From a virus: a DNA stretch of 36,477 bases. This document shows, piece after piece, positions 3,514-35,975 of the stretch. Positions within the stretch are counted from its first letter, which is position 1, and every line of letters begins with the position of its first letter. The notes below the pieces were generated by a model. The model was not told the DNA's origin, ran no database searches, and saw only the letters and a list, made by a program, of their open reading frames with translations. A program made the translations under genes and the position numbers. Location of the stretch: positions 1 through 36,477 of IMG/VR virus record IMGVR_UViG_3300034418_005035. The stretch is one strand, 5' to 3'.

Positions 3514-3945
3514 ATGGATGAAATCCAAATCACTGTAAGCAAGATCGGGATCGCAAAGCCCGATGCGCCAGCGGACAATCGTGGGCGCAAGAAAGGTTCC
3601 GGCCAGATCCAGCGTTTCATTGAGACGCAAGTGATCCCGTTGCTGGATGTCATCAACGATCCGGTGAACAACGGCATCGTGCAGGAGTCTGTGTGCAAGG
3701 CTTCGTGGGCCCGGTACGAGTGCCGGTTCCCCGAGTTGGAGTTCACATTCTACAACCCGCATAAGGTGATGACCGAGCCGGGCCGTTTGGCTTCTTACGC
3801 CAGCACCCTCGGGCAGCGGTGGATCGCCGCGAAGTATGCGACACGTCACGACGTGTGCATCACCCGCAAGCAGCAGACAGAAGATCGTCCCGCTGTGGTT
3901 GAGGCGTGCCGCAACATGACCGGGTTCTTGGGAGGTGTGCGATGA
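3514..3945 (+). CDS. hypothetical protein (143 aa)
   Basis: ATG at 3514 has a strong Shine-Dalgarno sequence (AGGAGGGGG, 6 bases upstream), which decides against the longer frame from 3490. The product starts MDEIQITVSKIGIAKPDAPA and continues with RGRKKGSGQIQRFIE, a basic patch, then a mixed alpha/beta body with a conserved-looking aromatic FTFYNP. It has no membrane segment. Its stop overlaps the start of the next gene (ATGA). It opens a run of tightly coupled genes that extends to WhiB. No family was recognised; a DNA-associated role is possible from its basic N-terminal part but not shown. Confidence 0.75.
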   Translation: MDEIQITVSKIGIAKPDAPADNRGRKKGSGQIQRFIETQVIPLLDVINDPVNNGIVQESVCKASWARYECRFPELEFTFYNPHKVMTEPGRLASYASTLGQRWIAAKYATRHDVCITRKQQTEDRPAVVEACRNMTGFLGGVR

Positions 3946-11159: not shown

Positions 11160-11653
11160 AGCGGGCAAGCGACGAAATCTTTCGACGTGAAGCCACCATC
11201 GGCCAACAGTACGCCGAACTGGTAGCCGCCCGACTATGTGAGAACGGCATCAACGCTGAAGCAACCGAACTCACATTCGCTGAAACCGAAGAACAAATCA
11301 AAGACTACGAAGATGAACAAGACGTAGTCCTAGACAGCGGACACTGTGTCGAAGTGAAGTCACGCAACCTAGAGTTCGACGCAGACCCCAAGTCATTTCC
11401 GTACACCACAGCGTTCGTTGACACCGTTGCCGGATGGCGGAAGAAAAGAAACAAACCGGTTGCTGTTGTGTTCGTGTCACGCGCAACCGACCAGATGCTG
11501 GTCGTCATGGGAGACACAGATGATCAATGGGGTGCAGTAAAAAAGTTTGATCGAATCCGCAAACATTACGACACCTTCCACACGGTTCCACGTAGAATGC
11601 TGATTAGTTTCGATACAGCAGTCGAACTGATCAAAGAGATCACAAATGGCTAA
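11156..11653 (+). CDS. PD-(D/E)XK-type nuclease, putative (165 aa)
   Basis: The core motif is Asp56 ... Glu66-Val-Lys68 in EQDVVLDSG-HCVEVKSRN, preceded by a helix (IGQQYAELVAARLCENG) as in holliday-junction-resolvase-like and restriction-type nucleases. The C-terminal half continues with alternating strands (AVVFVSR, MLVVMGD). It sits between RusA and the sigma-like gene, so a role in DNA processing is likely. The fold assignment rests on one motif and predicted secondary structure. The stop overlaps the next gene by 8 bases. Confidence 0.65.
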   Translation: MKRASDEIFRREATIGQQYAELVAARLCENGINAEATELTFAETEEQIKDYEDEQDVVLDSGHCVEVKSRNLEFDADPKSFPYTTAFVDTVAGWRKKRNKPVAVVFVSRATDQMLVVMGDTDDQWGAVKKFDRIRKHYDTFHTVPRRMLISFDTAVELIKEITNG

Positions 11654-12470
11654 CCGTCAAATACCAACAGAGTTCTATGGTGACGAAACACCAATGTTTC
11701 GTCGCATCCCAGAGAACCCGATACAGGCATTGATGGAAGCAGACTTCGGACATGAACCAGAAGAATCATCCGAAGAACTAGAACCGCTCAGAGAAATTGT
11801 TGCCGACGCAGTCGACCTGCTACCTGAAGAAGACCGCTGGGTCATCGACGCTGTTTACAGTGAACAACTGTCGTTGCAACAAATCGCTGACCAACTTGGT
11901 GTATCCAAAACACACGTGTTCCGGATACGGAACCGTGCCCTGAAAGCATTGAAAGCAATGCTAAGTTTCGACATGACCATCAGAGAAAGAGTGAACATGC
12001 CAACCACATGGGAAGAATCAGCAGAAGACCTAGTGAAAGCACTTGCTTCCTACTTCGCTGACCCGACACCAATCGACATTGTCAAAGTACGAGAAGAACG
12101 AGACATACTGTTCAGGACAGAAGGCACCGACATCAGGGTGTGGCCTGCCATCGCCTACTCCGCTATCGCTGAACTACGAGACAGAGGCGAGTGGGACAGC
12201 GAACGGATGACCGACCTGCTGGTTTCAAAGCAACGTGACTACGGCCATCAAAACATTCTGCAAGGCGGACTGTTTGGGGTGGCGATCAGGTTGTCTGACA
12301 AGATTGAACGGTACGCCAACCTGATGAAGAAATCCGATGGCAGCCCGGCGAACGAATCAATCATCGACACACTGCTAGACATGGTCGGCTACTGTGTTAT
12401 CGCACAGATGCTCATCGACGGATCATTCATACTTGACCTGAGCGATGAGGGTAACGAAAGGGCTAGTTAG
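11646..12470 (+). CDS. sigma-region-4-like HTH joined to a DUF1599-like domain (274 aa)
   Basis: Residues about 55-106 read as sigma region 4: LLPEEDRWVIDAVY-SEQLSLQQIADQLGVS-KTHVFRIRNRALKALKAML. Residues about 185-262 match the DUF1599 (nucleotide-modification-associated domain 1) pattern: LLVSKQRDYG, GVAIRLSDKIERYANL, ANESIIDTLLDMVGY. No region 2 of a sigma factor is apparent, so it is not a complete sigma; it could be a transcription activator, an anti-host factor, or a nucleotide/DNA-modification regulator. A late-type promoter overlaps its stop codon. This domain pairing is the most unusual in the left arm. Confidence 0.75.
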   Translation: MANRQIPTEFYGDETPMFRRIPENPIQALMEADFGHEPEESSEELEPLREIVADAVDLLPEEDRWVIDAVYSEQLSLQQIADQLGVSKTHVFRIRNRALKALKAMLSFDMTIRERVNMPTTWEESAEDLVKALASYFADPTPIDIVKVREERDILFRTEGTDIRVWPAIAYSAIAELRDRGEWDSERMTDLLVSKQRDYGHQNILQGGLFGVAIRLSDKIERYANLMKKSDGSPANESIIDTLLDMVGYCVIAQMLIDGSFILDLSDEGNERAS

Positions 12471-24469: not shown

Positions 24470-24495
24470 CTAATAATAGAGAAAGATCGTTACCT
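24470..24495 (-). promoter_or_regulatory. late promoter of the scaffold-capsid unit
   Basis: Minus strand GTAACGA (24,493-24,487), eight bases, TATTATTAG. Here the start codon lies about 22 bases further down and a Shine-Dalgarno sequence (AAAGGA) is present, unlike the copies that touch a start codon. GTAACGA overlaps the TAA of the 38-aa gene. Confidence 0.75.
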
Positions 24496-34463: not shown

Positions 34464-34847
34464 TCAGTCAAGCGTCAACGTAAGCGACGTGATCGTAAAC
34501 GTGTCACCAGCAGCAACCGTCGAAGACGAGTTGAACGCACCAGTCCACACACAATCATCAGTCGGCTCACCAGACCCATCAACCGCATTCCCATTCCACA
34601 ACGACCAATGCGTCAACGTCTCCGCCGTCGACACATTCGTCCACGAAACAGACGAAGTCAAACCCATCGAACCACCAGAAGCAGCATTGAACGAACACGC
34701 CTTGAGCGTGTTCTCCCCAGCCGCATTCGCAGTCCCATCCTCACCCGGATCACCCGTATGCAACTTCAAATACGGAGACGACACAACAAAAGCCGTACCA
34801 CCAACCGCATCCAACAAAGCGTTCTCAGCGAAGTTACTAATGCTCAT
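34464..34847 (-). CDS. phage tail fibre-associated protein, LHTGDPG type (127 aa)
   Basis: The N-terminus MSISNFAENALLDAVGG followed by YLKLHTGDPGEDGTANAAG marks a widespread small structural family found next to tail fibres. The remainder is beta-rich (SVSWTNVSTAETLTHWSLWN) and ends in a strand. ATG at 34,847 overlaps the stop of the small zinc-ribbon gene (ATGA). It is likely a virion surface or tail protein. Confidence 0.75.
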   Translation of the reverse strand: MSISNFAENALLDAVGGTAFVVSSPYLKLHTGDPGEDGTANAAGENTLKACSFNAASGGSMGLTSSVSWTNVSTAETLTHWSLWNGNAVDGSGEPTDDCVWTGAFNSSSTVAAGDTFTITSLTLTLD

Positions 34848-34975
34848 TCCTGCACATCCTTAGGAATCTTAGGTTGCGGCTCACCGTCGCAACAACTGTC
34901 TTTAGCCCCACACGAAGGACACCTCCACCGACACTGAGTCGGCGGATACTCCATGCCGCACGCATAGCACTCCAC
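34844..34975 (-). CDS. small zinc-ribbon protein (43 aa)
   Basis: GTG at 34,975 is the last base group of a late promoter, so the mRNA should be leaderless. The 43-residue product has CYAC, then CRWRCPSCG and SCC, giving four or more Cys in ribbon spacing (MECYACGMEY at the start). It overlaps the next gene by four bases. There is no ATG alternative near the promoter, which supports GTG as the start codon used in the related copies. Confidence 0.65.
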   Translation of the reverse strand: MECYACGMEYPPTQCRWRCPSCGAKDSCCDGEPQPKIPKDVQE

Positions 34976-34997
34976 TAAGAAAGCCAAATCGTTACAC
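34973..34997 (-). promoter_or_regulatory. late promoter before the zinc-ribbon/fibre unit
   Basis: Minus strand GTAACGA (34,995-34,989), six bases, TTTCTTAGTG. The small-terminase TAA lies in GTAACGA and the GTG start codon is the end of the motif. Confidence 0.75.
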
Positions 34998-35420
34998 CGC
35001 CCTCAGCCGAGAATCCCGCTCACGGGCAGCCATAGCACCAATCAACTCATCCAACTCCTCATCAGACAACTGAGCAGCCTTACGATCAGTCTTCACCTCA
35101 ACCTGAGCAGGAGCCATCTTATCCATCGCCTGCAACCACAACTGAGCCGCCCTAACATCCCCATCCAACGCCCGAGCATGCAACGTATCCAACACGTTCT
35201 GCGTGCGCTCAGGCGACCCCTGAAACGCCCTAGAACGCTGCTCCCACTCCCGAGCAAACACATCCTTCTTCTCCCACCGCCTCAGGGTCGACACGTCGAC
35301 ACCTAGGTGGTCAGCGAATCCTTGCTTAGACGCGGGGTTCCGTTCACTGGGTGCGGTACATAGCCAGTCCAGATACTGTTGCTGCCGTCTGTCCAGCCCC
35401 AAATCTTCTTCATGTGCCAT
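34992..35420 (-). CDS. terS: terminase small subunit, probable (142 aa)
   Basis: It is the first gene of the virion arm. Residues about 30-50 form a helix-turn-helix (SKQGFADHLGVDVSTLRRWEKKD), as in the DNA-binding domain of small terminases. The C-terminal half is helical (VLDTLHARALDGDVRAAQLWL) and ends in acidic SDEELDELIGAMAARERDS, the pattern of oligomer-forming small terminases. It would recognise the packaging site. Other genes separate it from the large subunit, an uncommon order. ATG 35,420 or GTG 35,423 is the start, without a Shine-Dalgarno sequence. Confidence 0.75.
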   Translation of the reverse strand: MAHEEDLGLDRRQQQYLDWLCTAPSERNPASKQGFADHLGVDVSTLRRWEKKDVFAREWEQRSRAFQGSPERTQNVLDTLHARALDGDVRAAQLWLQAMDKMAPAQVEVKTDRKAAQLSDEELDELIGAMAARERDSRLRAV

Positions 35421-35445
35421 CACTAGATAGGCAAGATCGTTACCC
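35421..35445 (-). promoter_or_regulatory. late promoter of the virion arm
   Basis: Minus strand GGGTAACGA (GTAACGA at 35,443-35,437), seven bases, TATCTAGTG, then ATG. It is the head copy of the leftward module. Confidence 0.8.
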
Positions 35446-35500
35446 CGATCTTGCCCGCAAACAGTTCACTTCGGCACGACGCAAACCAGCCCCCATTGAT

Positions 35501-35524
35501 GTAACGATGTCACCTATAAGTAGT
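35501..35524 (+). promoter_or_regulatory. rightward copy of the late promoter motif
   Basis: GTAACGA (35,501-35,507), seven bases, TATAAGTAG: a good match on the plus strand, back to back with the copy at 35,421-35,445. RNA would start near 35,523 and reach the small gene at 35,568 and perhaps the early promoter region. Confidence 0.65.
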
Positions 35525-35567
35525 TTCCCGTGGAGGGGGGGACTACAGGGGGGGAGGAGATAGTGGC

Positions 35568-35684
35568 ATGCCTCCGTACCTGAAGATTGACGGAGTCAAT
35601 CACCGAACAGCCAAGCACATGTCACGGGGTAACCCGGAACGGGTAACCCCGAAACAGAACAATACCGAACAGTTCATATCCTGA
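35568..35684 (+). CDS. small basic protein (38 aa)
   Basis: ATG at 35,568 has a strong Shine-Dalgarno sequence (GGAGGAG, 8 bases upstream) and lies about 45 bases after the rightward late promoter. The 38-residue product (MPPYLKIDGVNHRTAKHM at the start) is basic and polar. GGGGTAACCCG and CGGGTAACCCC within the gene form an imperfect inverted repeat. The combination of promoter, ribosome site and stop codon suggests a real late gene; no family was recognised. Confidence 0.5.
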   Translation: MPPYLKIDGVNHRTAKHMSRGNPERVTPKQNNTEQFIS

Positions 35685-35944
35685 GAACCGTAAACCGGAC
35701 GACCCGCAGGAGTCCCTTCATCGGTGCGTGGGTGGGGGGCCCATGCGCCCCCTCGCAGGCCCGGGTGTTCGATCGATGACTGGCAGGAACCGGCCCCGCC
35801 ACTGGCCCGGTGTCCCTGCAGGGACACTGAACCGGCCCCAACTAGCCACACCACGACAGCGGGCAGCGGGCAGCACGACCGGGCAGTGCCGAGGGTGTCG
35901 GCGGGCGGGCGGGCATGCTGCGGGGAAGAATGTCGGGGCAGGTC
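35685..35944. other. GC-rich intergenic stretch upstream of the early promoter
   Basis: No convincing gene. It holds a complete copy of the dispersed palindrome (35,811-35,826), short repeats of GGGCAG and CGGG (35,858-35,930, for example GGCGGGCGGGCGGGC), and G-runs near 35,728-35,760. Reading frames on both strands have shadow-like composition. It may hold an operator, an origin or the packaging start. Confidence 0.4.
35811..35826. repeat. dispersed palindrome, copy 5
   Basis: Perfect TGTCCCTGCAGGGACA, with flanks an 18-bp palindrome (35,810-35,827), about 120 bases upstream of the early promoter at 35,945. Confidence 0.9.
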
Positions 35945-35975
35945 TTGACAGTGCCCGGGTGTGTGTGCGCATAAT
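35945..35975 (+). promoter_or_regulatory. early promoter P0 (TTGACA-19-CATAAT)
   Basis: A perfect -35 TTGACA (35,945-35,950) and CATAAT (35,970-35,975), 19 bases apart. The start near 35,982 coincides with a stem-loop. It drives the HTH gene at 36,026. Confidence 0.7.

Follow-up and report, generated by a model that had tools for sequence, protein, structure and literature searches.

The gap that separates the divergent late and early transcription units of a phage genome carries a 20-base element, G7-ACTACA-G7, and on balance we lean towards the interpretation that this sequence is the core of a replication origin, coupled in this phage to a late promoter. The DNA analysed, hereafter called the window, is the whole 36,477-bp stretch of a virus record (G000). 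Within it, the element resides between a rightward promoter-like sequence and a 38-codon open reading frame (Table 1), and two of the three G7 runs present in the entire window belong to it.

The two ends of the window are found joined in a near-identical phage (L003, positions 3930-3943), together with about 14 bases that are absent from the open window record. Since this locus bridges both ends, the genome map is probably a circle of about 36.5 kb. Late structural genes are arranged leftward from the gap, and the rightward unit encodes a WhiB-like protein, an exonuclease, a DnaB-like helicase, an archaeo-eukaryotic primase, RusA, a sigma-70 region 4 protein and an endolysin. The window represents a podovirus-like phage, and its host, judging from the WhiB-like gene, is probably an actinobacterium. 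Perfect or near-perfect palindromes of the GTGTCCCTGCAGGGACAC type are located at window positions 499, 853, 2425, 5218 and 35810. Six matches with three or fewer mismatches were found where 0.02 are expected, and these copies probably serve a phage regulator as operators. A possible early promoter with a wide, 19-nucleotide spacer was absent from the output of our promoter scan, which permits spacers of 16-18 nucleotides.

Table 1. Features of the late/early gap and its flanking units, in window coordinates.
Feature	Position	Strand	Details
Late structural genes	35,420 to about 13,484	leftward	portal, major capsid, terminase
Early and replication genes	about 36,027 via end join to about 13,487	rightward	
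Sigma-70 region 4 domain protein	11646..12470	+	Pfam Sigma70_r4, 7.6e-10
Terminase small subunit (terS) gene	34992..35420	-	142 aa, start ATG at 35,420; PHROG hits (best 1.6e-6) and family alignment
Putative leftward late promoter, GTAACGATCTTGCCTATCTAGTG	35421..35443	-	leaderless, abuts terS ATG; GTAACGA at 35,437-35,443
Rightward promoter-like copy, GTAACGATGTCACCTATAAGTAG	35501..35523	+	exact GTAACGA at 35,501-35,507
Double G-tract element, G7-ACTACA-G7, GGGGGGGACTACAGGGGGGG	35535..35554	+	20 bases; candidate replication-origin element
GGAGGAG, possible ribosome-binding site	35553..35559	+	8 nt before ATG at 35,568; overlaps end of G-tract element
38-codon frame, MPPYLKIDGVNHRTAKHMSRGNPERVTPKQNNTEQFIS	35568..35684	+	ATG at 35,568; limited to near-identical phages
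Palindrome, GTGTCCCTGCAGGGACAC	35810..35827	+	perfect, 18 bp; member of dispersed early-region set
Possible early promoter, TTGACA-N19-CATAAT	35945..35975	+	read from sequence; ahead of early gene at about 36,027

The sequence GTAACGA occurs nine times in the window compared with 3.3 expected, a number reached in 2 of 100 shuffles. Eight of the nine copies precede late genes and share the general form GTAACGAWNNNNCTNNNTAGTG, such that the motif is common to the starts of several late genes. Most copies abut a start codon and have no ribosome-binding site, and we read those with a start codon directly behind them as leaderless late promoters. The late gene behind the copy at position 24,493 has a short leader, and a plus-strand copy at 12,451 precedes the endolysin gene. 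The promoter at 34,995 ends in TAGTG, and its GTG opens a small zinc-ribbon frame (VECYACGMEYPPTQCRWRCPSCGAKDSCC..., 34845-34973, minus strand) that, as read from the sequence, is apparently leaderless as well. The sigma-70 region 4 protein is a candidate reader of these promoters.

Two oppositely oriented GTAACGA copies are located in the gap itself, and they differ in how well they resemble the remainder of the set. Using a matrix built from seven sites, from which the leftward gap copy was held out, this copy scores 18.2, versus 10.4 for the best position lacking GTAACGA. It is thus a convincing candidate for the leaderless late promoter of terS. The score of the rightward copy, 9.7, is inside the noise, and 5% of random positions score at least as high as the part that follows its GTAACGA. 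Yet its conserved form, GTAACGATGTNNCCTATA, recurs in diverged relatives (L009/L190 and L010/L191), and rightward GTAACG boxes opposite terS are conserved across the family. In one relative (L353, plus strand, 13,688), the box is found 15-20 nucleotides ahead of an ATG, which is the spacing observed at leaderless late genes. A short rightward gene follows the box in most relatives checked, and its product is usually rich in lysine and arginine, with a net charge of +10 to +15. The back-to-back late promoters proposed in a first-pass annotation therefore hold convincingly for the leftward copy, whereas the rightward one is weak on the matrix but conserved in relatives. Late transcription rightward out of the gap, which the same annotation had proposed, is plausible because of these conserved boxes and the short genes behind them. 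In one clade (L011, L013, L014, L203, L233 and L237), a GAGAATCATTCTC-type inverted repeat is present between the divergent boxes.

Pattern scans for G7-ANTAYA-G7 identified at least 120 viral contig stretches, and the narrower pattern G7-AYTAYA-G7 was found on 32 genome contigs, whereas the scrambled, composition-matched spacers TAAYYT and AYATYA yielded no matches between G7 runs. In the collection scan, the element occurs once per contig among the matches listed. Searches that did not employ the motif gave similar outcomes. A double G-run resides upstream of terS in 53 of the 68 TerS relatives that have enough upstream sequence, and G-runs are absent in the other 15. The variants at this location include G7-AGGGTAGGGA-G7, G6-AGGGGTAGGGGA-G6 and G6-AACCTATAGGA-G6, usually with GTAACG just upstream. 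In three loci upstream of terS (L190, L194 and L196), the G-runs are about 25-28 nucleotides apart and enclose an inverted-repeat-like insert such as GCGAACGAGCGGAGCGAGTGAGC. Likewise, all 45 testable marine T7-like loci, which were collected by TerL similarity with a query that itself came from a motif-bearing locus, carry a double G-run 22-43 nucleotides past the end of the terL match. The isolate P-SCSP2 has no G-runs. The T7-type RNA polymerase family PF00940 is present in three of three marine T7-like records tested and absent from all 12 window-type records tested.

One isolate carrier was encountered, Mycobacterium phage Kumao, in which the element occupies the divergent gap between gp43 and gp44, in the middle of the genome and far from its ends. 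DNA searches for isolates matching two loci returned nothing for L123 and, among the matches listed, only methyltransferase matches for L107. A CRISPR spacer in Chelatococcus caeni (TCTCTCGTCCCCCTTGGGGGGGACTATAGGGGGGG, L176) contains the element, an indication that DNA invading the hosts can carry it. The element has no match in Rfam, and neither its string nor a description of it was found in a search that covered open-access papers and may therefore have overlooked an earlier account.

Outside the terminase-linked groups, the element resides within genes, and the identity of these genes points towards replication. When 46 element-overlapping ORFs were scanned against PHROG, the leading hits were replication initiation, primosomal, DnaD-like loader and O-like families, with phrog_270 matched in 11 of the 46, and DnaB helicase was matched in 9 of 47 nearby ORFs. 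Depending on strand and frame, the element DNA encodes PPIVPP, PPIIPP, PPYNPP, GGDYRGG or GGTIGG. Because the element is retained while reading frame and strand change, the constraint acts on the DNA. Several initiator-gene loci carry arrays of about three element units. In some initiator-gene copies (L152, L154, L155 and L174), the element is preceded by a run of Cs (CCCCC...GGGGGGGAC), and one strand of such a sequence could fold into a hairpin, with a third G tract in addition. Unlike these carriers, the window has its element outside the initiator and helicase genes.

The two G-runs of an element are equal in length in 204 of 224 distinct elements (element tallies, here as elsewhere, count related sequences more than once), compared with a mean of 147 and a maximum of 164 in 10,000 shuffles. 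Tract lengths of 7/7, 8/8 and 9/9 occur within a single clade, and several element variants are mirror-symmetric about the central TA. This matching of run lengths, together with the mirror symmetry, suggests that the G tracts pair with each other in a quadruplex, a hybrid quadruplex or a purine triplex. In addition, the order of the spacer is specific, as AYTAYA is common and AYATYA is absent, which suggests that a binding protein or a TpA-dependent step is involved rather than structure alone. An RNA energy model predicts a quadruplex of -14.5 kcal/mol for isolated G7-N6-G7 RNA, but the same model predicts that, within the window RNA, the quadruplex loses to an ordinary hairpin.

Strand asymmetry is supportive of an origin in the gap, but is not decisive. 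The minimum of the detrended cumulative GC skew of the window is at 35,494, which is 41 nucleotides from the element, and gene direction changes there too. In the T7-like genome G014, for which only the right-hand piece was considered, the minimum at 34,669 is 5 nucleotides from the element at 34,674, whereas in G013 the distance is about 680 nucleotides. The skew is higher to the right of the element than to its left in all 21 T7-like loci. Third-position skew in terL was dropped as a discriminator because it is negative in T7-like phages and also in the element-free isolate P-SCSP2.

A sequence of events that could link these features can be outlined. A late-type promoter just upstream, as is found in the window and in most TerS relatives, would direct RNA synthesis rightward through the G tracts, or starting at them. 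Supercoiling or transcription could then permit the equal tracts to pair and form a purine triplex or a quadruplex, the latter possibly an RNA:DNA hybrid. Opening of the AT-rich centre, with exposure of the C-rich strand, would yield a site that could serve as the entry point for a replicative helicase and primase or for an RNA primer. In mitochondria, both transcription and replication are known to be influenced by hybrid quadruplexes that form at G tracts (PMC5027508). Priming by transcription cannot be a general mode of use, since the G-rich sequence can be on either strand in initiator genes.

The origin interpretation is favoured because the element is specific and recurrent, is present in initiator genes, has equal tracts and is near a skew minimum. 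Several observations weigh against it: the skew minimum coincides with the switch in gene direction, the negative terL skew is shared with the element-free P-SCSP2, G-runs are missing both from the 15 TerS relatives noted above and from P-SCSP2, the G-rich sequence can be on either strand in initiator genes, and the specific spacer order points to a binding protein rather than to structure alone. We know of no mapped origin that has this element. A broader proposal, which we offer tentatively, is that G7-AYTAYA-G7 might be an undescribed origin module common to tailed phages with unrelated replication machineries. Such a module would work mainly through a DNA structure for which two G tracts of equal length flanking a TpA centre are necessary, and a late promoter would fire it in podovirus-like phages.

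In terminase-linked phages, the element also occupies the site where packaging would begin, and it might instead be a signal that terminase recognises or cuts, in which case the virion genome would have its ends at the G-runs. Consistent with this possibility, the element is beside terS or right after terL in the groups described above, and six viral contigs (L193, L230, L239, L268, L282 and L295) end within its 20 nucleotides. However, these contigs end at differing bases (after GGG, G6, G7ACT, G7ACTA or G7ACTATAG4), and this variability is more readily explained by problems with the sequencing or assembly of G-runs than by a defined cut. Given also the initiator-gene location in other phages and the mid-genome location in Kumao, a packaging signal seems unlikely.

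Somewhat less probable still is a role as a roadblock or pause site for transcription, at which nascent RNA and the G-rich strand would form a quadruplex, as at mitochondrial CSB II, and halt polymerase in the gap that separates late from early genes. The G-rich strand is indeed the non-template strand for the rightward promoter or for terL in terminase-linked phages, and the quadruplex predicted for the isolated RNA would suit this role. In contrast, the element is found in either orientation within initiator coding sequences, where a stop would truncate the gene, and the competing hairpin in the window RNA argues against this function as well. The motif may nevertheless serve more than one of the origin, packaging and roadblock roles.

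The first-pass annotation had favoured a different view, in which rightward late RNA expresses a 38-aa peptide, or itself acts, to regulate the early operon. The GTAACGA copies, the GGAGGAG sequence and the frame are all present where they had been placed, the frame is uninterrupted and preceded by GGAGGAG, and the conserved rightward boxes with small, mostly basic genes behind them in relatives would accord with such a peptide. The GGAGGAG sequence, which had been taken for a ribosome-binding site, overlaps the end of the double G-run element, itself overlooked, and it offers weak evidence for such a site because some of its letters belong to a G7 tract. The frame is intact in L003-L006, which share about 94% or more DNA identity over this part and differ by one amino-acid change (P3S). 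A tblastn comparison across all collected loci detected no homologue outside near-identical phages, the next relatives included. The small genes of relatives are unrelated to the frame, and most of them are far more basic than it (net charge +3). Translation of the frame is thus not supported by conservation, and a peptide regulator, now a very improbable explanation, was dropped as the main reading. Finally, although some relatives lack the element, the notion that it is a chance or relic G-rich tract without a role downstream of a late promoter is barely credible given the null result with scrambled spacers and the concentration of the window's G7 runs within it.

If the element is part of an origin, then a 20-base string would mark the start of replication in many uncultured phages from sequence alone. 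It would also be a rare case in which the same DNA is used by phages that have different initiators, helicases and primases, in this instance O-like proteins with DnaB, an archaeo-eukaryotic primase and T7-type machinery. The equality of the tract lengths makes a structural mechanism directly testable.

Comparisons with known systems reveal both likenesses and differences. In podovirus-like and T7-like phages, the element separates terS or terL from the early region, much as a terminase cos or pac site would, but it is inside replication genes elsewhere and mid-genome in Kumao, so that terminase adjacency does not extend to all carriers. The sequence ACTATAGGG resembles the start region of T7 promoters, and the leftward promoters of relatives end in CCTATAGGG before the ATG. 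Unlike T7-class promoters, however, the element is found once per contig among the matches listed rather than at many genes. A T7-like promoter was set aside because window-type genomes lack PF00940 and the genes of P-SCSP2 and G014 are not preceded by repeated copies of CTATAGG.

Mitochondrial CSB II forms a hybrid RNA:DNA quadruplex and is read by the single-subunit polymerase POLRMT. Its G tracts are likewise paired and close to a promoter, at a place where RNA encounters G-rich DNA, and the phage G7-AGGGTAGGGA-G7 variants are similar to it. In contrast, the window phage is without such a polymerase (PF00940 in 0 of 12 window-type records), and the phage element retains its AYTAYA centre. 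The lambda origin has four iterons and an AT-rich stretch and is not known to contain a G7-N6-G7 element. It differs also in that a single element is here common to phages with unrelated replication proteins and, in the window, is located outside an initiator gene. Nevertheless, lambda-type origins reside inside gene O, and several of the element classes described here similarly occupy the interdomain linker of O-like or replisome-organiser genes, which often adjoin a dnaB helicase gene.
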